DNA of 64,000 bases, from NCBI GenBank assembly GCA_025499625.1, contig JAFMVD010000010.1, forward strand, positions 62,001-126,000. The letters run 5' to 3'. Position 1 is the first letter of the stretch; every line of letters starts with the position of its first letter. Shown here piece after piece: positions 10,757-50,531 of this stretch. A program made the translations under genes and the position numbers. The stretch is from Carboxylicivirga fragile. GTDB taxonomy: Bacteria > Bacteroidota > Bacteroidia > Bacteroidales > Marinilabiliaceae. The notes below the pieces were generated by a model. The model saw nothing but the letters and a program-made list of their open reading frames with translations. It was not told the DNA's origin and ran no database searches.

Positions 10757-11010
10757 ATACACGGTGTACCTGCTTCTCTCCGAAAATATTAAAGTACACG
10801 ATGTACTTGCTCCTTTCCATCCGGAATTGCAAACGACACGGTGTACTTGCTTGTTTCCATTCGGAAATGTAAAAGTACACAGTGTACAATGGTGTTTTTA
10901 TCCAGAAAAGTGAAAGTACAGGGTGTACTTGCTTGTTTTACTCCTGAAATACGAAAGTACACGGTGTACAATGTTGTTTCAGTGCTGAAAAGTAAAAGTA
11001 CACGGTGTAT
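10757..11010 (+). repeat. 41-bp-period dyad array 1 (seven units)
   Basis: The 480-nt gap between abiH and the patatin gene holds no credible gene. It contains seven copies of an odd-length palindrome, consensus GTACACGGTGTAC, starting at 10757, 10794, 10834, 10875, 10916, 10957 and 10998. Spacings are 37, 40, 41, 41, 41 and 41 nt. Spacers are themselves alike (TTGCTTGTTTCC...GGAAATGTAAAA) and hold a weaker dyad, TTTCC-N4-GGAAA. In the best unit (10854-10867) this is centred exactly half-way between cores. 41 is not a multiple of three and frames are not conserved, so it is not coding. Function unknown. Confidence 0.88.
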
Positions 11011-11148
11011 CGATTAATTTCCATTCGAAATTGAAAAAATAACAAGGTATTTGATGCTTGATTTGTGCTAGAGCAAAATAAAACTTGCTGTATTATCAGA
11101 ATACTCTTAGTTTTATAATCCTATTTATCGTTAATAGATTATTGGATT

Positions 11149-12783
11149 ATGGAACCACAAAAACTTAAAATTGGTCTGGCCTTTTCGGGAGGTGGCTTTC
11201 GCGCAGCATCGTTTAGCTTGGGTGTGCTAAGCTATCTGAATCATATAAAAATCAAGGATCAACCACTATTAGATAGTGTGATTGCACTTTCAACTATTTC
11301 GGGAGGAACCATTGCTGGTGCGCGCTATTCTGTAGGCATTAAGCGGGGCGAAAGTTTTGAAACGATTTATGAGGATTTGTATGGTTTCATGAGTCGGCTC
11401 GATTTGATTGAACATAGTCTCGATAACCTGATTAAAAGTAACGACTGGGATAAAAAACGCAGCAATGGTTTGATCGAAGCATTTGCCGATTTGTACAATA
11501 GTGAATTATTTGCCGAAGAGAAATTCTCGCGAATTTTAGAAAGCACACCCGATATTCATCTCAAACATATCTCATTTAATGCAACCGAGTTTGACAATGC
11601 CTTGCAATTTCGTTTTCAGGTAAGCGAAACAATGAAACAGACTTCTGAGGAGAAGCCCGATAAAGGCATTATTGGAAATTATTATTACCGAATACCAGAG
11701 CAGGTGGCAAAGGATATTCGCATGGCAGATATATTGGCGGCTTCCTCCTGTTTTCCGGGTGGGTTTGAACCAATTGTTTTTCCTGATGATTTTGATTTGG
11801 AAGCAAGTGATGCTTCGCGTATTTTCTTTGAAGAGAAAAAAGATCCCATTGGATTAATGGATGGCGGCATTGTAGATAATCAAGGGATTGAACCTTTATT
11901 GTTGGCCGAGGATCGAATGAAAAAGAACGAGGGCAAAAAGCCAGATGATGCCAATGTAATGGACTTATTAATTATGTCGGATGTGACGAGTCCCTATATG
12001 GAAGATTATTCGCCTTGGAAAACCAAGAAGAGTTGGTGGCGCAGAATGACGCCTCGAGCTATATTAATCGTTAATTCTCTGGCTTTGCTTGGCTCCATAG
12101 CAGGCTTATTTTTTAGCTTAAAAAATGAACTGACTGGATGGAGTGCAGCAGCATCTGCGGTGGTAATTTTTAATTTAATCGTGTTTTTATTGTCTCACTT
12201 TTTGCTCAAGTTGCCCAAGAAGTTTGATGTGCCTCAAGCTTTTCTTAAACCTATCAGGAAATTGTTGAAACTTCGTCTGGTAGTGTTTGAGAACATGATA
12301 ATGAATCGCGCCAGCTCACTCTTACAAATGAACATGGACGTGTTTTTGAAGCACATTCGCCGTTTGAATTACAACCGCATTTATCAGGATAAAACGTGGA
12401 AGAACCGCCGTATAATGAATGCGATATATGAATTGCGTCATGGCGAAGAGAAGCTGCTATCCAAAATTAAAAATAACACCATTCCAAAGGAATTAATTCC
12501 GTCAGAAGCAATGCAGAACGTTGCTGATACGGCATCAAGCATGGGAACCACCTTGTGGTTTACCAAGGATGAGTTAGAGAAACAAGACATGCTCAATTCT
12601 ATTATTGCATGTGGGCAATTTAGCATGTGTTGGAATCTACTTTGTTACATCGACGAAATCACCAAGAGTAATGAGAATTTGAGTACTAATCACGTTTTGT
12701 TGGTTGATGTCAAAGAGCAATTGATGGCGCAATGGTTGCAATTTAAGGAGAATCCATTTTGGATGCTTGAAGCGAGTTCTTAA
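11149..12783 (+). CDS. Patatin-like phospholipase with internal membrane segments
   Basis: 544 residues. The patatin catalytic elements are the oxyanion loop SGGGFRA (13-19), a nucleophile-elbow-like STISGGT with Ser51, and the DGG motif with Asp238 forming the Ser-Asp dyad. These enzymes hydrolyse acyl esters of phospholipids. Unlike simple patatins it carries two hydrophobic segments (about 304-323 and 330-348) after the catalytic domain and a further 190-residue helical C-terminal region, so it is probably anchored in the inner membrane. The elbow is less canonical than GxSxG. It sits beyond the array downstream of abiH; patatins also serve as effectors in anti-phage systems, but no cyclase or sensor partner is present here. 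Confidence 0.85.
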   Translation: MEPQKLKIGLAFSGGGFRAASFSLGVLSYLNHIKIKDQPLLDSVIALSTISGGTIAGARYSVGIKRGESFETIYEDLYGFMSRLDLIEHSLDNLIKSNDWDKKRSNGLIEAFADLYNSELFAEEKFSRILESTPDIHLKHISFNATEFDNALQFRFQVSETMKQTSEEKPDKGIIGNYYYRIPEQVAKDIRMADILAASSCFPGGFEPIVFPDDFDLEASDASRIFFEEKKDPIGLMDGGIVDNQGIEPLLLAEDRMKKNEGKKPDDANVMDLLIMSDVTSPYMEDYSPWKTKKSWWRRMTPRAILIVNSLALLGSIAGLFFSLKNELTGWSAAASAVVIFNLIVFLLSHFLLKLPKKFDVPQAFLKPIRKLLKLRLVVFENMIMNRASSLLQMNMDVFLKHIRRLNYNRIYQDKTWKNRRIMNAIYELRHGEEKLLSKIKNNTIPKELIPSEAMQNVADTASSMGTTLWFTKDELEKQDMLNSIIACGQFSMCWNLLCYIDEITKSNENLSTNHVLLVDVKEQLMAQWLQFKENPFWMLEASS

Positions 12784-12945
12784 TAAAGATTTTTCTTCAT
12801 TACGTTTAACTAAGTTCTGATATGTATTGAACTTCTAGTTCTTTGTGTTTAAAATCACGATTTTCAGTTCTGTAAAAAGGATAAGTTTTAGTAATTTCGC
12901 AGGCTGAAAGAAAAGCGAAGTATTTACGACCATTCAATAAATATC

Positions 12946-15729
12946 ATGGAATACAATTTTAAGGAACTAGAACAAAAATGGCAAAAGTATTGGGACGATA
13001 ATAAAACGTACAAAGTTGAGGTTGATAACAGTCGACCAAAATTTTATGTGCTCGATATGTTTCCTTACCCATCGGGAGCTGGATTACACGTTGGTCACCC
13101 GCTCGGATACATTGCCTCTGATATTTACAGTCGATACAAGCGATTGAATGGTTTCAACGTGTTGCATCCAATGGGCTACGATGCTTATGGTTTGCCTGCT
13201 GAGCAATATGCCATTCAAACGGGACAGCACCCGGCCATCACCACCGAAAATAACTTAACGCGCTACCGCGAGCAACTAGATAAAATTGGTTTTTGTTACG
13301 ATTGGGATCGTGAAGTAAAAACATGTGACCCTGATTATTACAAGTGGACACAGTGGGCTTTTATCCAAATGTTCAACCATTACTATTGCAATCAGGCCAA
13401 GCAAGCGCGTCCGATTTCTGAGTTGGCCGAAGCATTTGCATCTGTTGGAACCAATGGTTTGAATGTGGCTTGCAGCGAAGAATTAGAATTTACTGCTGAG
13501 CAGTGGAAAGCTAAAACAGACAAAGAACAACAAGAGATATTATTAAATTACCGTTTGGCTTATTTGGCCGATACAATGGTAAACTGGTGTCCTGCTTTAG
13601 GCACTGTATTGGCCAACGATGAGGTGAAAGAAGGTCTTTCGGTTCGCGGGGGTCATCCGGTTGAGCAAAAGGTGATGCGCCAATGGTCATTGCGTGTTTC
13701 GGCTTATGCCGAACGTTTGTTAACAGGCTTGGATAAGGTTGACTGGAGTGATTCGTTAAAAGAAATTCAGCGAAATTGGATCGGTCGTTCCGAAGGTGCT
13801 GAAATGACTTTCAAGGTGAAGGATTCGGATGTTAACATGGAAATCTTTACCACACGTGCCGATACGGTTTATGGTGTAACTTTTATGGTGTTGGCGCCAG
13901 AGAGTGAGCTGGTTGATCAATTAACTAAGCCAGAACAGCGTGCTGCTGTTGATGCCTACATTGTTGAGACTAATAAACGTACCGAGCGTGAGCGATTGGC
14001 AGAGGTTAAAAAAGTAACTGGAGTATTCTCAGGATCGTATGCCATTAATCCATTAACAAACGAAGAAATTCCGGTTTGGATTAGCGATTACGTATTAGCT
14101 GGTTATGGAACAGGTGCTATCATGGCCGTTCCTGCGCACGATTCGCGCGATTTTGCCTTTGCACGTCAGTTCGATTTACCAATCCGTCAGGTGGTAATAC
14201 CTGTTGGAGCCGAAGAAACAGATACAGCTACATGGGAAGATTCAATCGACTCCAAAGAAGGTACAATGGTTAATTCCGATATCTTAAACGGATTAGACGT
14301 AAAAGAAGGAATTGCCAAAACAAAGGAATACATCAAAGAAAAGAACATAGGTAAGGTTAAAACCAATTTCCGCCTGCGCGATGCAATTTTTAGTCGTCAG
14401 CGTTATTGGGGTGAGCCATTCCCAGTTTATTACAAGGATAACATACCTTACATGTTAGACGAGGAAAAATTACCATTGACTTTGCCTGAGATTGATAAAT
14501 ATTTACCAACCGAACAAGGAGAGCCACCATTGGGGCGTGCTAAGGATTGGCAAACGGAAGACGGCTATCCTTTAGAATTAAATACCATGCCTGGTTTCGC
14601 AGGTTCATCAGCGTATTATCTACGTTACATGGATCCAAAGAATGATAAGGCATTGGTTGGTAAAGAAGCTAACGAGTACTGGCAAGATGTTGATCTTTAC
14701 ATCGGTGGAACCGAGCATGCAACGGGTCACTTAATTTATTCGCGATTCTGGAATAAGTTCTTGTTCGATATGGGTAAGGTGATTAAAGATGAGCCTTACA
14801 AGAAGTTGATCAACCAGGGAATGATCCAAGGGCGTTCAAATTTTGTTTATCGAGTTAAAGGCACAAACAAGTTTGTGTCGCATGGTTTGCGTAAGGATTA
14901 TGATGTGACAGACATTCACGTGGATGTGAACATTGTACGAAACGATGAGTTGGATATGGAGGCTTTCAAAAAGTGGAGTCCAGATTATGCCGATGCTGAG
15001 TTCGTACTTGAGAATGGAAAGTATGTGTGTGGATGGGCTGTTGAGAAGATGTCAAAGTCGATGTACAACGTGGTTAATCCAGATGATATCATTGCTGATT
15101 ACGGTGCTGATACACTTCGTTTGTACGAAATGTTCCTTGGTCCTTTGGAGCAAAGTAAGCCTTGGGATACAAATGGTATCGACGGGGTTCATAAGTTCTT
15201 GAAAAAGACATGGCGCTTATTCTACGATGGTGAAACTCTGAAAGTAAGTGACGAAAAAGCAACGCCCGATGAGTTAAAAGTACTACACCGTACCATCAAA
15301 AAGATCAGCGATGATGTGGAGCGTTTCTCGTTTAATACTTGTGTAAGTGCCTTCATGATTTGTGTAAACGAACTGAACGACTTAAAATGTAATAAACGCG
15401 AGATTTTAGAGCAGTTATTGGCTTTATTGGCACCATTTGCACCACATATAAGTGAAGAGTTATGGCATGCATTAGGTCATGATTCAACAGTTTGCGATAC
15501 AGCTTGGCCTGAATTTAATCCTGCTCTAGTGGTTGAGTCATCTGTAACTTATCCGGTTTCATTCAATGGTAAAATGCGCTTTAAGCTTGATTTACCTGCT
15601 GACATGAATCCAAAGGACATTGAAGCAACTGTTTTGGCACACGATTCGTCAGCTAAATGGTTAGATGGGAAAACGGTTCGTAAAGTAATCGTTGTTCCTA
15701 AAAAGATTATCAATATAGTAGTGGGCTAA
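12946..15729 (+). CDS. leuS: Leucyl-tRNA synthetase
   Basis: Charges tRNA-Leu with leucine. The 927-residue class I synthetase shows the HIGH-equivalent in [16 protein letters not shown] (about 43-58), the editing (CP1) domain with [13 protein letters not shown] and [10 protein letters not shown], the KMSKS loop [10 protein letters not shown] (about 702-711) and an anticodon-binding domain before the C-terminal end. Length is normal for the phylum. It stands alone with a 162-nt upstream spacer that contains TAATTTCG at 12893-12900, a near -7 match; no T-box leader is seen. A strong intrinsic terminator follows the gene. Confidence 0.97.
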
Positions 15730-15736
15730 AAACAAT

Positions 15737-15752
15737 GCTGATAGCTATCAGC
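15737..15752. repeat. 16-bp perfect palindrome centred on ATAGCTAT
   Basis: GCTGATAGCTATCAGC lies 8 nt after the leuS stop and runs into related words (GGCTATTAGC). It belongs to a set of palindromes sharing the ATAGCTAT centre at 15970, 46378 and 53372. Confidence 0.7.
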
Positions 15753-15806
15753 TTTTGGCTATTAGCTTTTTAAAATAAGGAGGATTGATTTTCTCAAAAA
15801 ATCTCA

Positions 15807-15842
15807 AAGCCCGCAAGGATTTTTTCTTGTGGGCTTTTTTTA
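15807..15842 (+). terminator. Intrinsic terminator of leuS
   Basis: An 11-bp stem, AAGCCCGCAAG paired with CTTGTGGGCTT (one G-U), is closed by a T-rich loop and followed by a run of Ts. Confidence 0.88.
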
Positions 15843-15847
15843 AATAG

Positions 15848-15892
15848 CTCATCGGATGAATATAACTTATCACCTTATATTCATCCGATGAG
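15848..15892. repeat. Perfect 18-bp inverted repeat with 9-nt loop
   Basis: CTCATCGGATGAATATAA (15848-15865) is an exact reverse complement of 15875-15892 across the loop CTTATCACC. There is no T tract. It starts 6 nt beyond the leuS terminator. The rest of this 283-nt gap holds another dyad, GAGAAAAGTTTTCTC (15923-15937), and no gene. Confidence 0.85.
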
Positions 15893-15969
15893 TAAATAAT
15901 ATGAACATATGAAACGAGCCATGAGAAAAGTTTTCTCACACAGGAGAATGACTATGGTGGCGAGTTCCA

Positions 15970-15987
15970 TCCCGATAGCTATCGGGA
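15970..15987. repeat. 18-bp perfect palindrome TCCCGATAGCTATCGGGA
   Basis: A perfect palindrome 26 nt before the yitT start; an identical copy occurs at 46378-46395 after groEL. Intergenic in both cases. Confidence 0.8.
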
Positions 15988-16012
15988 GACAATTGAAAGA
16001 AAATATAATCAT

Positions 16013-16882
16013 ATGAAAAATAAAACTACTGTATTAAAAGAGATACGAAGTTACGTGATGCTTACCATTGGCTTAGGTGTTGGAACTTTGGGTTGGACCG
16101 GTTTCTTGATTCCGGCTAAAATTGTGGGTGGAGGTTTAACAGGTATTGCTACCATTATATACTTTCTTACGGGCTGGGATGTTGGTTTAACAACCTTGGT
16201 GATTAATGCTGGTTTGATTCTTCTAGCCATCCGCATTTTGGGGGCTTCCTTTGGTATTAAAACCATTTATTGTGTCCTGGTGTTTTCGGGCTTTTTATCC
16301 TTTCTAAGTCCAATGTTTACTGAGCCAATTGTTTCGGAGCTCATGATGAATGCTATCATAGGTGGTATTCTTGGAGGTCTTGGGGCAGGTATTGTGTTTG
16401 TGAATGGAGGTAGTACCGGCGGGGTTGATATCATTGCCATGATCATTAATAAATATAAGAACATCAGTCTGGGGCGCCTTTTGCTCGGCATGGATGCCAT
16501 TATTATTTCTTCTTCTTATTTCTTACTTCAATCATCCTCAATCGAGACGGTTGTTTACGGATTTATGACCATGGCAATTTTGGCGTATACGGTGGACATG
16601 GTTATATCGGGTAATAAGCAGACCGTGCAGTTTTTTATTATCTCATCCAAACCCGATGAAATACGTAAGTCGGTTATTTTTGATGCTAATCGCGGCTTAA
16701 CTGTACTAAATGGTGTTGGCGGGTATTCAGGTGAGGAACGCAAAGTATTGATGGTGATAGCACGTAAGAGCGAAACCCAAATGATTTTTAAGGTGGTTAA
16801 GCAGATTGATGACGAAGCTTTTATTACGGTTGGTACCGTTATGGGAGTGTATGGTCAAGGTTTTGATAAGATCAAGATATAA
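16013..16882 (+). CDS. YitT family membrane protein (DUF161/DUF2179)
   Basis: 289 residues with about six hydrophobic segments in the first 200 residues, including Gly-rich stretches GLGVGTLGWTGFLIPAKIVGGG and FVNGGSTGGVDIIAMI that typify YitT proteins. A soluble C-terminal DUF2179 domain follows (about 205-285; DANRGLTVLNGVGGYSGEE). These integral membrane proteins are widespread and their transported substrate, if any, is not established. The gene is preceded by a repeat-rich spacer and appears monocistronic. Confidence 0.88.
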   Translation: MKNKTTVLKEIRSYVMLTIGLGVGTLGWTGFLIPAKIVGGGLTGIATIIYFLTGWDVGLTTLVINAGLILLAIRILGASFGIKTIYCVLVFSGFLSFLSPMFTEPIVSELMMNAIIGGILGGLGAGIVFVNGGSTGGVDIIAMIINKYKNISLGRLLLGMDAIIISSSYFLLQSSSIETVVYGFMTMAILAYTVDMVISGNKQTVQFFIISSKPDEIRKSVIFDANRGLTVLNGVGGYSGEERKVLMVIARKSETQMIFKVVKQIDDEAFITVGTVMGVYGQGFDKIKI

Positions 16883-17010
16883 ATGAAATATTGGTTTGGG
16901 ACAAAATATATTTTTCGGATTAAAGTTATAAAGTATATCTTAGTGCATCCATCGGATTTTAGCGGCAGAGACGAGTGTTTTTGCCTTTAGTCCGATAAAA
17001 ATATTACACC

Positions 17011-17018
17011 TAATTTTG
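17011..17018 (+). promoter_or_regulatory. Candidate -7 element abutting the M23 peptidase start
   Basis: TAATTTTG matches TAnnTTTG perfectly and ends 2 nt before the ATG at 17021. If used, transcription would begin at or next to the start codon, giving a leaderless message. No experimental support. Confidence 0.4.
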
Positions 17019-17020
17019 TC

Positions 17021-18289
17021 ATGAAGAAGCGTTCTGTCTATTTAATTGTATTGGCTGTTTTAGTATTAATCCCAGCTATCTATTTTGGTATCCATCGATA
17101 TAAGCACCCCCGTTCGATTGTAACGGACGAAACGATTGATTCATTAGCCATTATTGAATTACCCGAGCCAGAATTGCTATATGGATTGCCATTGGACACC
17201 TTCGAGATTGTTGCGAATAAGGTGAAACGAAACCAGTTTTTAGCCGATATTTTCCTAAAAGCCGGAGTGGATTATCCTACCATCCATAAAATTGTAGAAG
17301 CCTCAAAGCCTGTTTTTGATGTTCGTAAAATAAAAGTCGGTAACAACTATTCAGTATTTTACTCTAAAGATAGTTTACGAAGTTTACAGCACTTCGTTTA
17401 TGAGATTGATAATACCGATTACATGGTGGTTTCGCTAGCTGACTCTATTGATGTGTATCGCGACATAAAAGAAACTGTGGTTGTTCCAAAGGTGGCTTCG
17501 GGTGTTATTAACTCTTCATTATGGAATGCCATGTCGGATAATGGGGTAAATCCTTTATTGGCCATTGAATTGTCGGAGATATTTGCGTGGACAGTTGATT
17601 TCTTTGGAATTGAAAAAGGGGATAATTTCAAGGTATTGTACGATGAGCAATTTGTTGATAGTGTAAGTATTGGAGTAGGTGAGATTCGTGCTGCACTGTT
17701 TCATCATCGAGGCAAAGATTACTATGCCTTTAATTTTGAGGAAGACAGTGTTTGGAACTTTTTTGATGAAGATGGGCAGAGTTTGCGAAAAGCTTTTTTG
17801 AAAGCTCCTTTGAAATTCTCGCGTATTAGTAGTCGCTTTTCGCATAGTCGTTTACATCCCGTTCTGAAAATACGACGTCCGCATCATGGCATCGATTATG
17901 CCGCACCTTCAGGTACGCCAGTTTACGCTTTGGGCGATGGACGTATCTCGGTAAAAGGTTATCAGAAACGAGGTGGAGGAAACTACCTAAAAATAAAGCA
18001 TAACAGCGTTTATACAACCGTATATATGCATCTAAAAGGTTTTGCCAAAGGAATGGCTAAGGGTGTTCATGTGCAACAAGGTCAGTTAATAGGATATGTT
18101 GGTTCTACCGGTTTATCTACTGGACCGCACCTGGATTTTCGAGTGTTTAAAAATGGTAAGCCTGTCGATCCTTTAAAAATTGATGCTCCACCAGTAAATC
18201 CCGTTAAGGAAGAGAATAGAGATACGTTTAATGTATTTATTCAGCCTTTAAAGCTCCAACTTGATAGCATTCCGTTAAATCAGTTTTAA
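17021..18289 (+). CDS. Membrane-anchored M23 family peptidoglycan endopeptidase
   Basis: 422 residues: one N-terminal membrane segment (about 5-24), a periplasmic OapA/LysM-like region (about 55-250), and a C-terminal M23 domain (about 265-385). Zinc and catalytic residues visible are HHGID (His289 and Asp292), His337 in YMHLKG and His370 in GPHLDFR. The classical HxH motif is HxD here, with Asp372 in place of the third ligand His; I believe this variant occurs in related Bacteroidota enzymes. It should cleave peptide cross-links in peptidoglycan. It ends by overlapping 4 nt with the convergent CDF transporter gene. Confidence 0.9.
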   Translation: MKKRSVYLIVLAVLVLIPAIYFGIHRYKHPRSIVTDETIDSLAIIELPEPELLYGLPLDTFEIVANKVKRNQFLADIFLKAGVDYPTIHKIVEASKPVFDVRKIKVGNNYSVFYSKDSLRSLQHFVYEIDNTDYMVVSLADSIDVYRDIKETVVVPKVASGVINSSLWNAMSDNGVNPLLAIELSEIFAWTVDFFGIEKGDNFKVLYDEQFVDSVSIGVGEIRAALFHHRGKDYYAFNFEEDSVWNFFDEDGQSLRKAFLKAPLKFSRISSRFSHSRLHPVLKIRRPHHGIDYAAPSGTPVYALGDGRISVKGYQKRGGGNYLKIKHNSVYTTVYMHLKGFAKGMAKGVHVQQGQLIGYVGSTGLSTGPHLDFRVFKNGKPVDPLKIDAPPVNPVKEENRDTFNVFIQPLKLQLDSIPLNQF

Positions 18290-19185
18290 GCTCTTTCGGT
18301 CAGAATAATCTCAACATCAACATTTGAATAGAATGTTGAGATGGCTTTCGTTATTCTACCTTTTAGCTTATCGCTATAAGTCAGTTGTAGGTTTTTTTGA
18401 CTTGGAGTCAAATATACTGTAACCCACCTTCTACGCCCGGTTTTTAATATGTACGCTTTGTAGCGTTCAATTTTATCGTGTTCCAATTCATTATCGATTA
18501 GTTTTTCAATATCAAGTTGTGTGGCCTCATCTTGACCACTGAGTAAAAGTTCCTTTGTTCCAGTATTCATTGCTCTAATCGGAACCGATATTGTAAGTAA
18601 TCCTACTGCTATTACTACTACTTGATCCATGTATTTAATGTAGGGGCTTAAAAAGCCATCTTTCAATAGGAATGCCGCAACAAAAGAGGCAGCAATACTG
18701 GCTGTAATCAAAGTATTAATCATCCAGTTTTCCGTTTCAATTAAAACGATAGGCGAGTCCGTTTTTTTAACCTGAACTTTAAGATATAGATAGGTTATTA
18801 TATTGCCAACTAGTGCAACTAGCAAATAAATGATAATAGCGCCAAGTTTTAGTTCGTTGCCGCCATTCAAGAGCAGAATGATATTACTAACAACAACAAA
18901 GGATGTTAAGCCAAATACTATAAAGCCTTTTATAAGTATATATAACGGTTCGAGCGCTACGTAACCAGCGGGTCGTTTAAATGAAATTGGTGCATTAACC
19001 AGATTAGATATTTTAAGTCCAAAGAATACAGTTACTGCCGATATCAGATTAAACGCAGCATCCAATAAGACAGCTTGTGATGATGAGAATAAAGAAAACC
19101 CAAATCCTAAAATAGAAAAGGATAAAGCACTAAGCATGGAGACCGTAATTGCTTTTTTTTCGATGCTTGTATCTGATATGCTCAT
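18286..19185 (-). CDS. Cation diffusion facilitator transporter
   Basis: 299 residues with six predicted membrane helices and a cytoplasmic C-terminal domain, as in CDF metal exporters. The second helix carries LLDAAFNLISAV, corresponding to the HxxxD/DxxxD metal site region; the other metal-site half is not obvious in helix 5, so substrate (Zn, Co, Fe or Mn) cannot be given. The last 85 residues have the beta-alpha-beta-beta feel of the CDF dimerisation domain. Convergent with, and overlapping by 4 nt, the M23 peptidase gene. Confidence 0.82.
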   Translation of the reverse strand: MSISDTSIEKKAITVSMLSALSFSILGFGFSLFSSSQAVLLDAAFNLISAVTVFFGLKISNLVNAPISFKRPAGYVALEPLYILIKGFIVFGLTSFVVVSNIILLLNGGNELKLGAIIIYLLVALVGNIITYLYLKVQVKKTDSPIVLIETENWMINTLITASIAASFVAAFLLKDGFLSPYIKYMDQVVVIAVGLLTISVPIRAMNTGTKELLLSGQDEATQLDIEKLIDNELEHDKIERYKAYILKTGRRRWVTVYLTPSQKNLQLTYSDKLKGRITKAISTFYSNVDVEIILTERA

Positions 19186-19277: not shown

Positions 19278-19300
19278 AGTGTGCTTGTTATATAGAGTAA

Positions 19301-36161: not shown

Positions 36162-36417
36162 CGCTCGAGTAATTCATGTCACGCGCTTGTGGAACCTTCT
36201 TGCACTGGTGTATGGGACTTTCCCGGCTTTGTGAAAGCTTCTAGCACTTGTGTAATGCCAATCCCAAACTTGTGAAACCTTCTTGCAGTGATGTATTATA
36301 CTTTCCCATGTTTGTGAAAGCTTCCTACACTGGAGCAATACCCTTCATACGTTTGTGAAAGGTTCATGCACCCGAGTAATGACGATCACCTGTTTGCGAT
36401 GCATTCTTACACTCGTG
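36162..36417 (+). repeat. 41-bp-period dyad array 2 (seven units)
   Basis: Seven degenerate cores of the type CACTNGTG (within TTGCACTNGTGTAATG) start at 36162, 36203, 36245, 36286, 36328, 36369 and 36410; spacings are 41, 42, 41, 42, 41 and 41 nt. A second dyad, CTTTC-N10-GAAAG, sits between cores. At 36218-36237 its centre (36227.5) is exactly midway between the neighbouring core centres. Each unit also shows TTTGTGAAAGCTTC. It lies between the glycogen operon and the RAYT module. Not coding; function unknown. Confidence 0.82.
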
Positions 36418-36486
36418 TTTTAGCGTTCTTCCATTAGCGAAAGTGCAAAAAGTAAAATTGCCGCTTTGATTATATATTAAAGAGGG

Positions 36487-36532: not shown

Positions 36533-36607
36533 CTAATTCAATATTCTAAACCCCTTCAAGCTTAAGTATTGAAAATTGGCGAAGTCAAATTTGTAGTTGC
36601 GGCTCAT
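36533..36607 (-). pseudogene. Remnant of a second RAYT transposase gene
   Basis: A reverse-strand frame begins MSRNYKF, identical in its first seven residues to the intact RAYT at 37211-37765, then diverges and stops after 24 codons. Its upstream flank repeats the REP element and spacing found before the intact gene (gctagtg...gcgatt...atcgcgttct, then about 17 nt, then ATG). This is best read as a RAYT copy that lost its body, or a non-autonomous derivative keeping only the 5' end. Confidence 0.6.
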
Positions 36608-36628
36608 TAAATTTCATTGATTATAGAA

Positions 36629-36650
36629 CGCGATGCAATCGCGCACTAGC
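36629..36650. repeat. REP element A
   Basis: Hairpin CGCGAT-GCA-ATCGCG followed by CACTAGC. Matches element C at 37783-37807 and precedes the RAYT remnant (reverse sense). Confidence 0.7.
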
Positions 36651-37210: not shown

Positions 37211-37765
37211 CTATCTTAAAACTACAATATTTTTCAAAACTCCTTGCTCCCCACTATAATCTCTTGCACTACTATACACATAGTCTTCTGGATAGAAAAC
37301 TAGACCTTCTGCAACAGGGTTATTATGGATGTAATTTATTTTCTCATCAATTACTTTATTGCTCCAAAGCTCGATAGGTTTGTTGTCATGTCGCCAAAAC
37401 TGATATCTACTAACATTCGATGTTTTGTTTCCAGCTTTTTCGAATTGCTCAAGCAACCAGTCTTTTCTACTTTCTTTAGGATTTTCTTTTATGGCTTTCA
37501 CAATTACCTTGCTAGTGAACCGTTTAAAATCACCCAGTAATAATTCAGGTTTTTGATCTTTTATACTTCTGAAAACCAAATGAACATGGTTCGTCATTAT
37601 GCACCACGCAAAAATCTCCATGCCTTTTTCCTTCTGGCAATAGTGCAGGCTGTCAATTAATATGTTCTTGTATTCATTTCTTGTAAATACATCGAGCCAT
37701 TCAACAACGGCAAAGCTAACAAAGTACACTCCTTCTGGATTATAGAATTTGTAGTTACGGCTCAT
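37211..37765 (-). CDS. REP-associated tyrosine transposase (RAYT)
   Basis: 184 residues of the Y1/HUH transposase superfamily (transposase 17/IS200-like). It has the metal-binding HUH-type motif TNHVHLVF and, later, KINYIHNNPV with the candidate catalytic Tyr, plus the C-terminal DYVYSSARDYSG signature of RAYTs. These enzymes nick single-stranded DNA at REP hairpins and are usually domesticated single-copy genes. Here the gene is bracketed by matching elements B (3' side), C and D (5' side), which supports functional linkage. Full length and apparently intact. Confidence 0.9.
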   Translation of the reverse strand: MSRNYKFYNPEGVYFVSFAVVEWLDVFTRNEYKNILIDSLHYCQKEKGMEIFAWCIMTNHVHLVFRSIKDQKPELLLGDFKRFTSKVIVKAIKENPKESRKDWLLEQFEKAGNKTSNVSRYQFWRHDNKPIELWSNKVIDEKINYIHNNPVAEGLVFYPEDYVYSSARDYSGEQGVLKNIVVLR

Positions 37766-37782
37766 TGTTTATTGTTTTTTAA

Positions 37783-37807
37783 GAACGCGATACAATCGCC
37801 CACTAGC
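37783..37807. repeat. REP element C
   Basis: Hairpin GCGAT-ACA-ATCGC followed by CCACTAGC, 18 nt upstream of the RAYT start codon; pairs with element A. Confidence 0.75.
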
Positions 37808-42643: not shown

Positions 42644-42651
42644 TTTAGTAT

Positions 42652-43605
42652 ATGAACAAAGCCCAGTTTTTTGACCTAGTGTCGCAGCCCAATAAGGTAG
42701 ATGAAACAACACTTTCGTCGCTTAGCGAAATCGTAGATGAATTTCCATGGTTTCAGTCGGCTCGTATGCTAAGGGTTAAGAATCTGCATGTACTCGATCA
42801 TGTTCGTTTTAACAGTGAGCTGAAGCAAACGGCGGCATACATAGTTGATCGGCAGCGCTTATATGATCTGGTTCATCAGCAAGAGCTGGAGCCTGAATTA
42901 GAGGATGCGGGCAGTAAAGAGCTTGATGTTGAGCCAAAAGATAAAAAGGAGTCTGTTGAAGCAACAAGAGAAGAAGTTGTTGTTTCTGATAAGCGCTCAT
43001 CTTCCGTAGGTTTAACTACAAATGTTAGGTCGGTAGCCGATTATTTCCAAACAGACGATGTGTTTGAAACTAATGATGGAGTTGGTGTCGATTTTTCTAA
43101 AATTTCGGCTGCAGATAAGCCAGAAGAAGATGAGACAGAAATGGTATTGCCAAGTGCGGATTTTTTAGGATACGATTCGTCGGATTTTACGAACTATCAA
43201 TTAAAAGAAGCGCTTGATCCGGAAGAGATTGAAGAGGAGAATCGCTCATTTTCTGGTTGGTTAAATGTATTGCGCCATGCGCCAATACCAAAAGATGAGG
43301 CAGAAGAAAAGCCAGTTCCCAAGAAATCGCAACAGTTGATTGATAATTTCTTAAATGTTGAAGCGCCTCGTATTGTTGCGAAACCGGTTGAAAAAACAAA
43401 GCCCGAAAGTAATGATAGGCACGAGAATAGCATTCAAGAAAACGATGATTTATTATCCGAAACATTGGCTAATATCTATATCAAGCAAAAACATTACGAC
43501 AAGGCGATTGGGATTTATGAAAAGTTACGTTTGAAATATCCCGAAAAAAATGTTTACTTTGCCGAGCGAATTAGCGACCTAGAAAAATTAATTAATAATC
43601 AATAA
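42652..43605 (+). CDS. Hypothetical protein with C-terminal TPR-like segment
   Basis: 317 residues. A conserved-looking N-terminal helical domain (1-90, with SLSEIVDEFPWFQSARMLRV) is followed by a long acidic, low-complexity middle (about 90-250). A C-terminal TPR-like pair of helices ends the protein (LANIYIKQKHYDKAIGIYEKLRLKYPEKN). No signal peptide. Position between lptE and secG is a conserved context as far as I recall, but no function is established. Confidence 0.75.
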   Translation: MNKAQFFDLVSQPNKVDETTLSSLSEIVDEFPWFQSARMLRVKNLHVLDHVRFNSELKQTAAYIVDRQRLYDLVHQQELEPELEDAGSKELDVEPKDKKESVEATREEVVVSDKRSSSVGLTTNVRSVADYFQTDDVFETNDGVGVDFSKISAADKPEEDETEMVLPSADFLGYDSSDFTNYQLKEALDPEEIEEENRSFSGWLNVLRHAPIPKDEAEEKPVPKKSQQLIDNFLNVEAPRIVAKPVEKTKPESNDRHENSIQENDDLLSETLANIYIKQKHYDKAIGIYEKLRLKYPEKNVYFAERISDLEKLINNQ

Positions 43606-43614
43606 ATCGAAGAT

Positions 43615-43962
43615 ATGTCATTTATTACTATACTAATCGTTTTAGTTAGTGTCTTTTTAATTCTTATCGTATTGGTACAGAATTCTAAAGGTGGAGGATT
43701 AGCCTCAAACTTTTCAGCTTCTAACCAAGTGATGGGAGTTCGTAAAACGACCGACTTTCTTGAGAAAGCAACTTGGACTTCAGCTGGTGCACTGCTAATA
43801 TTGTGTTTTGTTGCTGTTATGTTCGTTGATAAAGGAACCATTGGAGCTGCCGAAATTGATGAGAAGGTAAATGCTTTACCAACTCAGCAAGAAATGCCTG
43901 CTTTCCCAACACCTGCTCAAGGAGAACAAACGGAAGGTGATGCAACTGAAGACGGAGAATAG
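43615..43962 (+). CDS. secG: Preprotein translocase subunit SecG
   Basis: 115 residues with two membrane helices (about 2-20 and 55-73) separated by the SecG loop NSKGGGLASNFSASNQVMGVRK. The C-terminal tail is acidic and Gln-rich. Partner of SecYE in protein export. Starts 9 nt after the previous gene; a strong terminator follows. Confidence 0.93.
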   Translation: MSFITILIVLVSVFLILIVLVQNSKGGGLASNFSASNQVMGVRKTTDFLEKATWTSAGALLILCFVAVMFVDKGTIGAAEIDEKVNALPTQQEMPAFPTPAQGEQTEGDATEDGE

Positions 43963-43987
43963 TTTTTAGAAGTATAAGATATTAAAG

Positions 43988-44019
43988 AGTGTCAAACCTA
44001 AGGGTTTGACACTTTTTTT
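43988..44019 (+). terminator. Intrinsic terminator of the lptE-secG operon
   Basis: Perfect 11-bp stem AGTGTCAAACC/GGTTTGACACT, 4-nt loop, then seven Ts. Confidence 0.92.
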
Positions 44020-44037
44020 ATGTCTTTTTTTTAAGTT

Positions 44038-44094
44038 AAATTAAGGATCGCATCTTTATAGCCCACATTGCTATAAAGATGCGATCCTTAATTT
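44038..44094. repeat. Perfect 24-bp inverted repeat with 9-nt loop
   Basis: The arms (44038-44061 and 44071-44094) are exact reverse complements around the loop CCCACATTG. There is no T run. It starts 19 nt past the secG terminator. The remainder of this 358-nt gap holds short CGGAC repeats (44095-44120) and the GTCAG motifs upstream of groES. Confidence 0.88.
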
Positions 44095-44138
44095 CGGACC
44101 TCGGACTATAGGCTTCGGACTAATTAAGCAAATTCAAT

Positions 44139-44220
44139 CTGTCAGGTAGGAGCGTTAAACTCGCTCAATTTTGTCAGTGTTAATGGCATAAATTGTCAGC
44201 CGACTGCAAAAAAGTCAGTG
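44139..44220 (+). promoter_or_regulatory. Cluster of GTCAG motifs upstream of groES
   Basis: Four occurrences: CTGTCAG 44139-44145, TGTCAGTG 44172-44179, TGTCAGC 44194-44200 and GTCAGTG 44214-44220. No CIRCE element (TTAGCACTC-N9-GAGTGCTAA) is present, so these may be part of a different heat-shock control. Tentative. Confidence 0.35.
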
Positions 44221-44320
44221 ATTTTATTAAAAAAGCTTTATATCCTGCTTTGGCATACTTTGTGAGAAAAAGCCATCGTGAATTAATTACAAATTCGTTT
44301 AAACTTAAAAATTAATAGAT

Positions 44321-44599
44321 ATGTCAGATTTAAAAGGTAAGGTCCTAGCCGGAAAAATTTTGGTGAAGCCACAGGAAGCTGAAACAAAAACCTCAAGTGG
44401 AATCATTATTCCTGATTCAGCAAAAGAAAAACCATTGCAAGGCGAAGTAGTATTAGTTGGTGCTGCAAAGCAGGACGAAGCTATGGAAATCAAAGCTGGA
44501 GATACTGTATTGTTCGGAAAATATGGTGGTACTGAAATAAACATTGATGGTGCTGACTACTTGTTGATGTCTCAGTCTGATGTTTTGTATATCCTTTAA
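44321..44599 (+). CDS. groES: Co-chaperonin GroES
   Basis: 92 residues of the Cpn10 family: VLAGKILVKPQEAETKT, the mobile loop SSGIIIPDSAKEKP, and the terminal VLFGKYGGTEINIDGADYLLM. It caps the GroEL ring during folding. groEL follows after a 122-nt spacer made of short repeated words. Confidence 0.97.
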   Translation: MSDLKGKVLAGKILVKPQEAETKTSSGIIIPDSAKEKPLQGEVVLVGAAKQDEAMEIKAGDTVLFGKYGGTEINIDGADYLLMSQSDVLYIL

Positions 44600-44615
44600 T
44601 TAATATAATAAGTAG

Positions 44616-46365
<1,750 letters not shown>

Positions 46366-46377
46366 AAAAGTTGATAG

Positions 46378-46395
46378 TCCCGATAGCTATCGGGA
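46378..46395. repeat. 18-bp perfect palindrome TCCCGATAGCTATCGGGA
   Basis: Identical to the copy at 15970-15987; lies 12 nt after the groEL stop, before its terminator. Confidence 0.8.
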
Positions 46396-46460
46396 TAGTC
46401 AGAAGGCAGTAGATTATATATCTTACTTATACTATTGCCCAATGTAACTACTCATATATG

Positions 46461-46492
46461 AAAGAGGAATCGCTTGCGGTTCCTCTTTTTTT
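46461..46492 (+). terminator. Intrinsic terminator of groESL
   Basis: A 12-bp stem (AAAGAGGAATCG/CGGTTCCTCTTT, one T-G pair), tetraloop CTTG and a T run. Confidence 0.9.
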
Positions 46493-46500
46493 GGTATATC

Positions 46501-46547
46501 AAGGGAGCGGCTCTCTTTTATCGCTTGTAAATAAAGAGCCGCTCCTT
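46501..46547. repeat. Long hairpin directly after the groESL terminator
   Basis: AAGG(g)AGCGGCTCT pairs with AGAGCCGCTCCTT, with one bulge and further A-T pairing towards a loop of about 9 nt. No T run. First element of the gene-free 446 nt before lepA. Confidence 0.7.
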
Positions 46548-46575
46548 ATCCACATTCGTGGTTTGTTATGGAAGG

Positions 46576-46681
46576 AATCCTGAAAGGATTTAAAATGAAT
46601 CGAAGATCAGCGAAGCTAATAGCCCTGTACGCCGTGCAGGGGGAGTAATAATGAATTATTAAAACAACCACAACGTGGTTG
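46576..46681. repeat. Cassette of three short hairpins with 3-nt loops
   Basis: AATCCT-GAA-AGGATT (46576-46590), CCCTGTAC-GCC-GTGCAGGG (46623-46641) and CAACCAC-AAC-GTGGTTG (46665-46681) are separated by AT-rich linkers. The 3-nt loops resemble the REP hairpins around the RAYT gene. Possibly a REP-type mobile cassette. Confidence 0.55.
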
Positions 46682-46743
46682 AATTTTAAAAGCAATTTCC
46701 CTGTTCTCTGTGTTTTAATTTAAAGAAAATTCAAGGAAATGAG

Positions 46744-46751
46744 TATCTTTG
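46744..46751 (+). promoter_or_regulatory. Candidate -7 element for lepA
   Basis: TATCTTTG matches TAnnTTTG perfectly, 60 nt upstream of the lepA start. The -33 region is unclear. Confidence 0.5.
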
Positions 46752-46811
46752 CAGACTTGAAAAGTGAGGTTGAGTGAATTGGGGTGGAACGAATAGGTTA
46801 ACAGGTAGTAG

Positions 46812-48599
46812 ATGAAGAATATACGTAATTTTTGTATTATAGCCCACATTGATCATGGGAAGAGTACTCTGGCAGATCGTTTGTTGGAGTTTACAGAGAC
46901 GGTTATGGGCAAAGACGCGCAGGCACAGGTTCTGGATGATATGGATATTGAGCGCGAGCGCGGTATTACCATTAAGAGTCATGCCATACAGATGGATTAT
47001 GAGCTTAATGGCGAAAAATATGTGCTTAACTTGATTGATACACCTGGACACGTTGATTTCTCCTATGAGGTATCGCGTTCCATTGCTGCCTGTGAGGGTG
47101 CTTTATTAATTGTAGATGCTACTCAAGGTATACAGGCCCAAACCATTTCTAACCTTTATCAGGCCATTGAAAATGATTTAACCATCATTCCGATCTTAAA
47201 TAAGATGGATCTACCAAATGCCATGCCCGAGGAAGTGGAAGATCAAATAATTGATTTGATTGGCTGCGATCGGGAAGAGATTATCAGAGCCAGTGGAAAA
47301 ACTGGTGAAGGAGTAGATGATATTTTGGAAGGTATAGTGGGACGTGTTCCGGCTCCCGAAGGTGATGTCGACGGGCCTTTTCAAGGTTTGATCTTTGATT
47401 CTGTTTTTAACTCTTTCCGAGGTATTATTGCTTATTTTAAAGTGGTAAACGGCAGTGTAAAAAAAGGTGATCACGTTAAGTTCTTCAATACTGAGAAACA
47501 ATATTTTTCAGATGAGCTTGGTGTATTACGTTTGGATATGGAACCTCGTAAGGAATTAAAAACAGGTGATGTTGGTTACATAATATCAGGTATTAAAACC
47601 AGTAAAGAGGTGAAGGTTGGTGACACCATCACACACGTGAAAGACGGTTGTAAAGAGGCTATCGGTGGCTTTGAGGAAGTGAAACCAATGGTTTTTGCTG
47701 GTGTTTATCCAATAGATGCCGAGGATTACGAAGATTTACGGGCCGCTATGGAAAAGCTGCAGTTGAATGATGCTTCTTTGACTTATGAGCCGGAATCTTC
47801 TGCAGCACTTGGCTTTGGCTTCCGTTGTGGCTTCCTTGGCTTATTGCACATGGAGATTATTCAGGAGCGATTAGATCGTGAGTTTGATATGGCTGTGATT
47901 ACTACGGTTCCTAACGTGCCGTACATTGCGCATACAAAGAAAGGTGAGCAGATTAATGTACATACACCTTCAGAGCTTCCAGAACCTACCATACTTGATG
48001 TGGTGGAAGAACCATATATCAGAGCATCAGTTATAACTAAATCAGAATTTATCGGTCAAATAATGACACTTTGCCTTGGTAAAAGAGGTGTGCTTATGAA
48101 ACAGCACTATTTAACTTCTGATAGAGTTGATATGGAGTTTGAGATGCCTTTGGCCGAAATCGTATTCGATTTTTACGATAAGTTGAAGAGTATTTCAAAA
48201 GGATATGCTTCTTTTGATTATCACCCAATAGGATTTAGAGCAGCTAAATTAGTGCGTTTGGATATCTTATTGAATAGTGAGCCGGTAGATGCCTTGTCAT
48301 CTTTGATCCATTTCGATAATGCGCAGATTTTTGGCCGACGCATGTGTGAGAAGCTCAAAGAGCTAATCCCACGTCAGCAATTCGACATTGCTATTCAGGC
48401 CGCAATTGGAGCTAAAATTATTGCACGCGAAACGGTTAAGGCTGTGCGTAAGGATGTAACCGCTAAATGTTATGGTGGTGATATTTCGCGTAAGCGTAAA
48501 CTGCTCGAAAAGCAGAAAAAAGGTAAGAAACGTATGAAGCAGGTGGGTAACGTTGAAGTGCCACAAAAAGCCTTCTTAGCTGTACTGAAATTAGATTAA
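46812..48599 (+). CDS. lepA: Elongation factor 4 (LepA)
   Basis: 595 residues, a translational GTPase that back-translocates or remodels ribosomes. G motifs: [14 protein letters not shown] (G1), [14 protein letters not shown] (G3) and LNKMDLP (G4). The LepA-specific C-terminal domain ends [17 protein letters not shown]. Length and motifs are typical. Confidence 0.97.
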
Positions 48600-48618
48600 G
48601 AAATTTTTAGTTAGATAG

Positions 48619-48652
48619 AAAAAGCGCATCAAAACAAATTGATGCGCTTTTT
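48619..48652. terminator. Bidirectional terminator between lepA and aspA
   Basis: AAAAAGCGCATCAA/TTGATGCGCTTTTT, a 14-bp perfect stem with a 6-nt loop, T runs on both strands, placed between convergent genes. Confidence 0.93.
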
Positions 48653-48682
48653 ATTATCCCTCTTTATGGGACGGATGTGCTA

Positions 48683-50098
48683 CTACTCACATTTCTTCTT
48701 TGCCGGACCAATCATGTTTTCTGGCTTTAATATTTCTTTAAGTTCATCTTCTGATAAAATGCCCTCTTCGAGTACAATTTCATAAACGCCTTTGCCGGTT
48801 TTTAAAGCCTCCTTGGCAATGCGTGTACTGTTTTTGTAACCGATGTGAGGATTAAGTGCTGTTACGATACCAATGCTTTTTAGTACCATATTTTCGCAAA
48901 CATCTTCGTTAGCGGTGATGCCATCAATGCATTTGGTACGTAGTGTATCCATTCCGCGCATTAAAAACTGCATCGATTCTAATATGCTGTAGGCCAATAC
49001 TGGCTCCATTACATTCAACTGTAATTGTCCTGCTTCGGCTGCAAAAGTTACCGTAAGATCGTTGCCAATTACCTTGAAACAGATTTGATTCATCACTTCA
49101 GGAATAACCGGATTTACCTTACCTGGCATAATTGATGAACCTGGTTGCATAGGTGGTAGGTTAATCTCGTTTAATCCGGCACGTGGTCCTGAAGATAATA
49201 AACGAAGGTCGTTACAGATCTTCGAAATCTTAACTGACATACGCTTTAAGGCCGATGAATAGATGACATACGAACCAGTATCAGGTGTTGCCTCAATTAA
49301 ATCAGTCGCCAGCACAATTGGATAACCCGTTATTTCACATAGAAACTTAACACACGAATCAGAATAACCATCAACGGAGTTAATGCCTGTTCCAATAGCA
49401 GTAGCTCCCATGTTAACCTCGTTGAACAGGTTAGCATTCTGAGTTAGGCGAGCAATCTCTTCGCTTAATGTACATGCGTAAGCGCAAAATTCTTGCCCCA
49501 AGGTCATCGGTACGGCATCCTGCAATTGGGTACGACCCATTTTTATAACATCAGCAAATTCGTTACCTTTTTTCTTGAAGGAGCTAACCAATGCTTCCAG
49601 ATGTTCAATCAATATGTAATTCATTCGAATCAACGAAAGCTTGATGGCCGTTGGATAGGCATCATTAGTTGATTGCGAAAGGTTCACAATGTCGTTTGGT
49701 GAGCAATGTTCGTATTGTCCTTTTTCGTAACCCAGTATTTCCAAGGTGCGATTGGCAATTACCTCATTGGCATTCATATTGGTTGATGTGCCAGCGCCAC
49801 CCTGTATCATATCGATTGGAAATTCCGCATCGAATTTTCCATCCATCACTTCTTGACAAGCTTGAACAACCGCATCTTTCATTTGATCATTCACTAATCC
49901 CATTTCATGATTGGCTTTAATAGCGGCCATTTTGACGACTCCTAAAGCCCATATAAAATGACGGTACTGACTCAGCTGTGCCGTAGAAATGTTAAAATTC
50001 TCAACCGCGCGTTGCGTTTGTACACCGTAATAGGCGTTAATCGGAACTTGTAGTTCTCCTAGTAAATCACTTTCAATACGTGTTGCCATGCGTGACAA
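48683..50098 (-). CDS. aspA: Aspartate ammonia-lyase
   Basis: Converts L-aspartate to fumarate and ammonia. 471 residues of the fumarase/aspartase superfamily: TSTNMNANEVIANR, GRTQLQDAVPMTLGQEF, and the signature loop GSSIMPGKVNPV with the catalytic Ser. The wording NLSQSTNDAYPTAIK and VMEPVLAYSILES leans to aspartase over class II fumarase. Single gene, convergent with lepA; upstream is a 503-nt gap containing array 3. Confidence 0.92.
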   Translation of the reverse strand: MSRMATRIESDLLGELQVPINAYYGVQTQRAVENFNISTAQLSQYRHFIWALGVVKMAAIKANHEMGLVNDQMKDAVVQACQEVMDGKFDAEFPIDMIQGGAGTSTNMNANEVIANRTLEILGYEKGQYEHCSPNDIVNLSQSTNDAYPTAIKLSLIRMNYILIEHLEALVSSFKKKGNEFADVIKMGRTQLQDAVPMTLGQEFCAYACTLSEEIARLTQNANLFNEVNMGATAIGTGINSVDGYSDSCVKFLCEITGYPIVLATDLIEATPDTGSYVIYSSALKRMSVKISKICNDLRLLSSGPRAGLNEINLPPMQPGSSIMPGKVNPVIPEVMNQICFKVIGNDLTVTFAAEAGQLQLNVMEPVLAYSILESMQFLMRGMDTLRTKCIDGITANEDVCENMVLKSIGIVTALNPHIGYKNSTRIAKEALKTGKGVYEIVLEEGILSEDELKEILKPENMIGPAKKKCE

Positions 50099-50431
50099 AT
50101 TTTAAGTAATAAATTATAGCAAATGTGAGTGTTTTTGTAGGGGGGAAACATGATATATTAACGTTTTTAAAAAGTTGACATGCTTGTGTGAAAGCATTTC
50201 TTAAGCGAAAAGTGTATTTAGAGGTAAATCCCCAATTGGAAATCCCCAAGCTCTTTCAATTTGAAGAAAGTATTGCGCTTTGGCTTTAAGTTTAAAAGTA
50301 GTTATAAAGGTGCTTTTGTTGGTAATTTAGGATTGTTCTAAATAAGAGTAATGAGTCGAATGAACCACTGATTTTATCCTCATGTTTATCGAGATTATTG
50401 TAAGAATACTTCGGAAACCTGCGCCTGATGC

Positions 50432-50531
50432 CATTAATGAATATTAACGGCCTATTTTCTCCTCAGGGAGCTCATTAATGTATGTTAATGGGGTGTTTTC
50501 TTCTCGGGCAGCTCATTAATGTGTGTTAATG
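50432..50531 (+). repeat. 41-bp-period dyad array 3 (three units)
   Basis: Cores of the form CATTAA-N6-TTAATG start at 50432, 50473 and 50514, exactly 41 nt apart; cores two and three are perfect dyads. Spacers share GNTNTTTTCT..TC.GGG..GCT. The half-period dyad seen in arrays 1 and 2 is weak here (CTCC-N4-GGAG at 50459-50470, off-centre by about 3 nt). The remaining 400 nt of this gap hold nothing recognisable. Confidence 0.8.

Follow-up and report, generated by a model that had tools for sequence, protein, structure and literature searches.

Why should repeat arrays that have no sequence in common keep the same spacing? The question is raised by a 64,000-nucleotide stretch of Carboxylicivirga fragile DNA (positions 62,001 to 126,000 of contig JAFMVD010000010.1; hereafter the window), numbered G000:C11:62001-126000 here, in a draft genome of 5.6 Mb and 140 contigs. 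An earlier note, made from the sequence alone, had described three tandem arrays in it with a 41-bp period and dyad-symmetric cores, and had proposed selection on their geometry or a common generating mechanism. The arrays are present at the positions given there, in non-coding gaps between genes, and further arrays are found in this Bacteroidota genome and its relatives. Their geometry is common to them and their sequence mostly is not: the unit measures about 20.5-21 bp (22-23 bp in some relatives), is often doubled and carries a word that is mostly private to the array. Private words at regular spacing suggest that something either reads the arrays or makes them by their spacing. The reading we prefer, tentatively and with a probability of roughly 0.47, is that they are tandem helix-phased recognition sites, which a protein would bind.

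Array 1 (10757..11040; as for the other two, no strand is assigned) contains seven units, starting at 10757, 10794, 10834, 10875, 10916, 10957 and 10998. The core is a 13-bp dyad, GTACACGGTGTAC, and half a unit from it lies another, TTTC-N-GGAAA; the core spacings are 37, 40, 41, 41, 41 and 41, the self-identity at lag 41 is 0.58, and Tandem Repeats Finder reports periods of 40, 41 and 82, the last being a higher-order repeat. Array 2 (36162..36440) has about six units with the core CACTNGTG, spaced by 42, 41, 42, 41 and 41, and a GTGAAAGCTTC-like block sits between the cores. Its self-identity is 0.49 at lag 41 and higher (0.54) at lag 83, and Tandem Repeats Finder gives periods of 42 and, again as a higher-order repeat, 83. 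Array 3 (50432..50533) is shorter, with 2.5 units and the core CATTAA-N6-TTAATG at spacings of 41 and 41 (Tandem Repeats Finder period 41; self-identity at lag 41 of 0.77). The cores are unrelated and the three arrays are without common sequence, as the earlier note had it; its spacing of 41, sometimes 42, is mostly right, apart from the 37 and 40 in array 1, which it missed.

The three arrays are confirmed to be more than chance repeats. Non-coding DNA was searched for self-identity of at least 53% across 100 bases at lags of 10-150, and gave 43 matches in about 290 kb. When the non-coding fragments measuring 200 bp or more were dinucleotide-shuffled three times (664 kb in total), six weak matches appeared, scattered at lags 31, 43, 50, 54, 102 and 138. 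The DNA scanned comprised 1.38 Mb from this genome, 0.80 Mb from the same-genus genome G002, 0.96 Mb in 80 loci of other Bacteroidota, all centred on one gene (two carry the labels Roseburia and Clostridium and are presumably bins with a wrong name), and, as a small and sole non-Bacteroidota control, 0.35 Mb of Escherichia coli K-12. Non-coding matches numbered 21, 22, 14 and 2, respectively; those of E. coli are at lags 100 and 144, with none within 16-75 (350 kb).

Among fundamental periods of 16-75 bp, the values 21, 41 and 42 account for 9 of 12 in the own genome (p 4e-10, two of the nine, L144 and L158, being close to the detection threshold), 7 of 13 in G002 (p 1e-6), 3 of 10 in the 80 other loci (p 0.012) and 0 of 0 in E. 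coli, the p values referring to a uniform-period null, which is crude. With the window left out, as it had prompted the idea, the own genome still has 6 of 9 (p 1.2e-6); adding G002 makes it 13 of 22 (p 4e-12). When periods of 20-23 and 40-46 are pooled, there are nine cases in the own genome, 11 in G002 and eight (8/10) in the other loci, where period 22 is favoured. Coding matches from the same detector have broad periods, nearly all multiples of 3, showing it to be without bias to 41. Array L100 was classed as coding and left out of these counts, while being used in the analyses of dyads, 10-bp signal, indels, gene context, profiles and word conservation; three 11/22-bp arrays of G002 (L098, L102 and L206) fall outside the 16-75 counts, their unit being 11 bp. 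The earlier note had named a broad spread of periods without enrichment as one outcome that would refute it; instead, 21, 41 and 42 are enriched, outside the window too. As a rule, 41 bp does not stand: the unit is about 20.5-21 bp, and 42, 21, 22 and 23 occur as well.

A coding origin was rejected, the 41-bp period not being a multiple of 3. In a test for open frames, five of nine array stretches have no frame above 60 codons over most of the array, and the open frames measure 101 codons in L144, 73 in L142, 62 in L105 and 136-169 in L100. Insertions tolerated merely for keeping the helical phase also fit poorly, because periods near 31 and 52 would serve equally well and are rare: among the 43 matches, 31 is not seen and 52 occurs twice, near threshold. 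Two apparent long units resolve otherwise, the 123-bp repeat of L007 being a composite duplication and not six 20.5-bp units, and the unit of L147:6178 being 8 bp and not 40. There is also a counterexample, a same-genus array upstream of fumarase (L214:3157-3703) with a unit of 36-37 bp, outside the two-turn rule.

Arrays 1, 2 and 3 have no match in 39 relatives and, with 40 genomes searched, were found in their own genome only. They are thus unique in sequence among the genomes searched, a result that the earlier note had counted against its own proposal. When 25 array profiles were run over the sampled DNA, 24 ranked their own array first, well above background; the exception is L084, the units of which drift in phase. 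This cross-matching rules out one common sequence family, with few exceptions. L100:17637-18010 and L191:4090-4350, both from G002 and about 206 kb apart, detect each other and also, above background, L084 in this genome, with GTA..CTG as the common word; the two from G002 have a common 105-bp higher-order unit, made of five 21-bp units, at 79% identity. Their likeness at distant places implies that array sequence can move between loci. A BLAST search with L191 matched two of 14 same-genus genomes (G001 and G002), found nothing in this genome and missed L084. By eye L142 resembles the GTA..CTG group, yet it is not separated from background. L213 (G005) and L217 (G003) are an orthologous pair that detect each other by the motif ATAACTATCGGTT; both lie in the gap downstream of fumarase, with a gene on the far side that looks like lepA, so identified in the window and by eye in the relatives. 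In G010, G009 and G011 that gap has no such array. In direct alignment the pair is only 53% identical, no better than units within one array. The profile likeness of L147 and L215 is borderline, and the remaining arrays are not separated from background.

Within arrays, conservation is concentrated in short words that keep their register. No unit is displaced in 12 stretches of 2-17 units, selected for their clean phase. In nine of these, each unit shares 52-63% of its bases with the next, and in three 77-84% (lag identities, for nearly the same stretches). The lag-1 autocorrelation of per-column conservation has a mean of 0.33, against -0.04 (standard deviation 0.06) after permutation, with 0 of 2000 permutations as high, and is positive in 11 of the 12 stretches. 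Neighbouring columns with different consensus letters are also correlated (0.27, 220 pairs; 0 of 5000 permutations as high), and in arrays unselected for phase the lag-1 signal has z scores of 6.9 (14 short-period arrays) and 5.1 (nine long-period arrays). Together, the conserved short words and the unbroken phase point to selection in the chosen arrays. That part of the earlier proposal of selection on geometry survives, and its 41-bp and dyad rule does not. The indel record is suggestive only: adjacent units show 138 gap openings per 1454 mismatches, or 128 per 1438 in 23 arrays without L239, which has 10 gaps in 16 mismatches. Substitution-only simulations give 79 gap openings per 1533 mismatches, leaving an excess in the arrays of about 0.03 per mismatch, with L084 alone giving 18 of the 49 excess gaps; dispersed non-coding repeats have 0.04-0.14 gaps per mismatch at 70-90% identity.

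For dyad symmetry, each array was folded on its own period and its reverse-complement self-match compared with that of the column-permuted array, in which the repeat is kept and the symmetry destroyed. The test was run in two versions, and the p values are uncorrected for multiple tests. In array 1 the dyad is strong (p 0.000-0.004 across four arm lengths), and there is a midpoint dyad too (p 0.000-0.03). For array 2 the later version gives a weak dyad (p 0.12 with the shortest arm and 0.012-0.024 with longer ones) and does not support a midpoint dyad (p 0.38-0.77), and the earlier version gives no significant dyad (p 0.29 and 0.42) and midpoint values of p 0.03 and 0.06. The core dyad of array 3 has p 0.01-0.06 for arms up to 15 and 0.30 at 20 in the later version and was absent in the earlier one (p 0.14 and 0.23, with two units); at the midpoint, arms up to 15 showed no dyad (p 0.23-0.72). 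Of the 22 arrays in the later test, three have a clear dyad (array 1, L203 and L130), four have one that becomes clear only as the arms lengthen (L215, L003, L217 and L213), and in another four it is weaker (arrays 2 and 3, L004 and L092). L157 has a midpoint signal only, and symmetry is absent or unconvincing in L147, L094, L144, L142, L193, L199, L108, L158, L239 and L100. Two dyads half a unit apart occur in array 1 and L203. The dyad cores with a weaker midpoint dyad that the earlier note described are therefore real in array 1, while in array 2 they are weak and, at the midpoint, not consistent between tests; with about half of the 22 arrays lacking convincing symmetry, dyads are a trait of part of the class and not its definition.

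Each array repeats its own word or words, of a few to about a dozen conserved bases, at intervals of 20.5-22 or 41-42 bp. One word thus follows another after about two (or four) helical turns and faces almost the same way on the DNA. If the arrays are recognition sites, one DNA-binding protein or a set of related proteins might bind cooperatively along them, for which initiators on iterons and SopB on the F centromere are precedents. The result would be a local nucleoprotein platform, serving in bridging, insulation, silencing or control of topology, rather than a promoter. We favour recognition sites because word-like conservation in a fixed register resembles that of tandem operators, and because the F centromere, with its 43-bp dyad repeats, shows this arrangement to be workable. 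Also counting for it are the period enrichment, the preference for convergent over divergent gene gaps (see below) and the ATAACTATCGGTT motif, which two species of the genus (G003 and G005) both have in the gap next to fumarase.

Several observations weigh against recognition sites. As most words are private, no single sequence-specific protein could read all arrays; there would be either many binders, or binding governed more by the periodic layout than by sequence. No binder or array-associated gene was found among the flanking genes examined. Neither conservation nor base classes carry a 10-bp signal, which rules out helix-phased base composition and conserved half-sites one turn apart, and periods of 22 and 23 drift slowly around the helix. 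The 12 stretches used for words and phase were picked for clean phase; array 1 was entered with its five regular units and without the first two (spacings 37 and 40), L100 and L191 are related, L100 lies in its frame of 136-169 open codons, and array 3, with two units, has a negative lag-1 value and no word signal. Raw gap rates in the arrays resemble those of dispersed repeats, the deficit appearing only after subtraction of the simulated gaps, and the detector favours indel-free arrays. Furthermore, arrays turn over fast. Beside the glycogen gene that adjoins array 2, none of 13 same-genus loci has a 41-bp array; there are a weak 16-bp match (L237), a sub-threshold 128-bp match (L233) and, about 1.3 kb from the gene, a 21/42-bp array (L239). 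At the place of array 3 beside fumarase, a 41-bp array is missing from all eight loci, five of which are without any match, two have weak ones (lags 99 and 136) and one has the 36-37 bp array L214; a ninth locus (L213) is too short on that side. The gene flanks of relatives did yield further 41-, 42/21- and 22-bp arrays (L215, L239, L213 and L217).

Fast turnover suits the strongest rival, one we consider doubtful and still clearly weightier than the others: that the arrays are non-functional minisatellites left by a duplication mechanism with a two-turn ruler. A protein might, for instance, hold the DNA during copying or cutting; unequal crossing-over would then expand the units, and the spacing would reflect origin and not function. 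Mostly private arrays, unconserved at orthologous places, fit this; the higher-order repeats of 82, 83 and 105 bp attest to in-register duplication more than once, and a preference for convergent gaps (see below) suits harmless DNA as well. What speaks against it is that neutral simulations of mutation and unequal crossing-over, run without context-dependent mutation, give no clustering of words (lag-1 values of -0.02 to -0.05), that several arrays remain in phase although their neighbouring units are only 52-63% identical, and that two species retain one motif at one locus. An improbable further reading would have the cell read self-similarity itself, through a sequence-blind, geometry-specific code in which any short word recurring every two turns will do, for example if double helices pair where their words match, or if a filament assembles on phased repeats of whatever sequence; an array between genes would then serve as an address of its own and not as a copy of one site. 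Slightly less probable still is action through single-strand self-pairing, as hairpins, cruciforms or a structured transcript, palindromic units being able to pair among themselves. Compared with shuffles, array 1 (10757-11040) does fold much better (z -5.8) and array 3 (50425-50545) somewhat better (z -2.6), whereas array 2 does not (z -0.5), about half of the 22 arrays have no convincing dyad, no Rfam match lies within the window, and good folding is trivial for tandem palindromes.

That the arrays are minisatellites carried by dispersed mobile elements, of the miniature inverted-repeat transposable element (MITE) or repetitive extragenic palindromic (REP) type, as BrickBuilt in Porphyromonas gingivalis is, we regard as unlikely for the class, and a few arrays do look like this. 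The 21-bp array L142:15283-15677 has on either side a 48-bp direct copy of an element that recurs in L134 and L168, the two copies being 85% identical. The 22-bp array L213:1785-2084 of G005 lies between two direct copies of the inverted-repeat element GGATGTCATCTTT..AAAGATGACATCC, one copy of which, without an array, occupies the gap downstream of fumarase in G010 (L216); this contrast may reflect entry or growth of an array at a hairpin element. L098:2872-3118, L102:8120-8443 and L206:5582-5852 have related flanks (70-74% over about 210 bp) and are apparently copies of one dispersed element, and the L130 array has a dispersed 46-bp element as one of its edges. Near array 2, at 37211-37765 on the minus strand, is a gene for a REP-associated tyrosine transposase (NCBIfam NF047646, 85.6 bits, cut-off 80), within a repeat pair of about 63 bp (36588-36650 and 37746-37807, 82% identical). 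That repeat does not match array 2, a comparison of flanks at E 0.05 gives no matching pair for 17 of 27 arrays, and arrays of 21 and 41 bp are for the most part not mutual copies; apart from the long direct pairs of L142 and L213, matching flank pairs measure at most 17 bp. Least probable of all, with hardly any weight, is a guide-RNA array of the TIGR-Tas type, in which each unit of about 36-41 nt holds a pair of alternating repeats and a pair of short spacers. The unit length of array 1 and its two conserved blocks per unit are similar, and TIGR repeats are described, in the part of the report consulted, as differing between loci (PMC12045711). However, no gene with a Nop domain (PF01798) was found in this genome, although a divergent Nop could escape the search (in the control, PF01798 matched in four of 14 genomes, all archaea); the segments between the cores of array 1 recur, by eye, from unit to unit and are not independent spacers, and 21-bp arrays are too short for two repeats and two spacers.

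The genes around the arrays are varied. Array 1 lies between an AbiH-like abortive-infection gene (9652-10668; Pfam and PADLOC) and a patatin-like gene, both on the plus strand. Array 2 is in a convergent gap, between a glycogen synthase/phosphorylase fusion gene (plus) and an open reading frame without Pfam match (minus); the closest relatives of the fusion among its 80 best matches are in Marinilabiliaceae (Bacteroidota), with best-segment identities of 80% for strain A049, 77% for MAG16 and 66% for Breznakibacter. Array 3 is flanked by the fumarase gene and another open reading frame without Pfam match, both on the minus strand. The ten genes flanking five further arrays (L100, L191, L084, L142 and L193) are mutually unrelated: beta-galactosidase, GH115, PdxA, FAD synthetase, cyclomaltodextrinase, dihydroorotate dehydrogenase, a formyltransferase, a Porph_ging protein and two open reading frames without match. 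The co-occurring DNA-binding or recombinase gene that the earlier note had advised looking for is thus not to be seen, none being common to the flanking genes examined. A plasmid or phage origin was rejected, as array 1 is unmatched in plasmids, array 2 in phages and the open reading frame beside array 2 in plasmids. Of 30 listed arrays, 27 could be classified by gene orientation, with 10 in convergent, 15 in tandem and two in divergent gaps, compared with 31, 153 and 63 among 247 background gaps of at least 250 bp. Arrays are commoner than background in convergent gaps (p 0.0024) and rarer in divergent ones (p 0.034), in a count where the background set does not cover all genomes that the 30 arrays come from, and where L213 and L217, like L098, L102 and L206, are not independent.

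If the arrays are bound, they would form a genome-wide set of phased sites, invisible to sequence-similarity searches because most carry their own word, and could organise the nucleoid or separate transcription units. Extrapolation gives roughly 25-37 arrays per genome (six outside the window in about 1.32 Mb, or nine including it in 1.38 Mb). If they were made by a two-turn ruler, they would represent an undescribed route of tandem repeat creation. Either way, the period can be used for searching other genomes. The earlier note knew of no described family with such a rule; we, too, found no description of private-sequence arrays with a common two-turn period in our searches of the open literature, which is weak evidence of novelty with closed journals unsearched.

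Comparison with known repeat systems brings out what is particular to these arrays. A CRISPR array is ruled out, since the 41-bp units are homologous to each other and are not near-identical repeats with unrelated spacers; the CRISPR period is given as about 58-81 bp in the sections seen of the SPADE paper (PMC6344855). TAACTGA direct repeats are reported from Beggiatoaceae, Cyanobacteria and some Bacteroidetes (PMC4679880, seen in part), and heptamer repeats are, in those sections of the SPADE paper, common in intergenic regions and without clear functional clue. Like the arrays, both are tandem repeats that lie between genes and occur across a wide range of bacteria; they differ in their 7-base unit and, for TAACTGA, a single word, compared with about 20.5-23 bp and differing words here. 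The window itself contains a heptamer array, ATCCTTA at 55221-55277, with periods also of 14 and 21. REP sequences and bacterial interspersed mosaic elements (BIME) are enterobacterial palindromes between convergent genes or at gene ends, of one family genome-wide. They share with our arrays the palindromes and the convergent gaps; as an identity they were rejected, there being no dispersed single palindromic family, and the transposase near array 2 having repeats of its own. BrickBuilt, a dispersed Bacteroidota minisatellite with a 23-nt unit, a leader and a tail (PMC4596501, as far as seen), differs in that the arrays here mostly have a sequence of their own and lack flanks of that kind; L098, L102 and L206 may be such an element.

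Closest are the arrays that work in replication and partition. The palindromic chromosomal parS word is TGTTNCACGTGNAACA; a ParB/parS centromere was rejected, since the best match to this consensus has 4-7 mismatches in each of 22 array stretches, and words with at most one mismatch occur outside array stretches, three in L183 and one in L206. The genome has one ParB_N gene, on contig C66, whereas the window arrays are on C11. The iterons of some replication origins are spaced by about two helical turns, and the arrays here are likewise direct repeats phased at about that distance. They differ in that their sequence varies from array to array and that no replication or partition gene is among the neighbours examined; no replication initiator adjoins the window arrays, the flanks being AbiH, patatin, the glycogen enzyme, fumarase and the two open reading frames without Pfam match. 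Plasmid partition iterons are, in the excerpt consulted, direct repeats bound cooperatively (PMC5016525). The centromere sopC (parS F) of the F plasmid has, according to the part of the source seen, twelve 43-bp tandem repeats with ten 16-bp inverted repeats, bound by ParB/SopB (PMC6238139). Here there are many arrays, mostly with private words and with no partition genes among the neighbours examined; the plan of tandem 41-43 bp units, each with a short dyad, is nevertheless shared, and array 1 is much like sopC.

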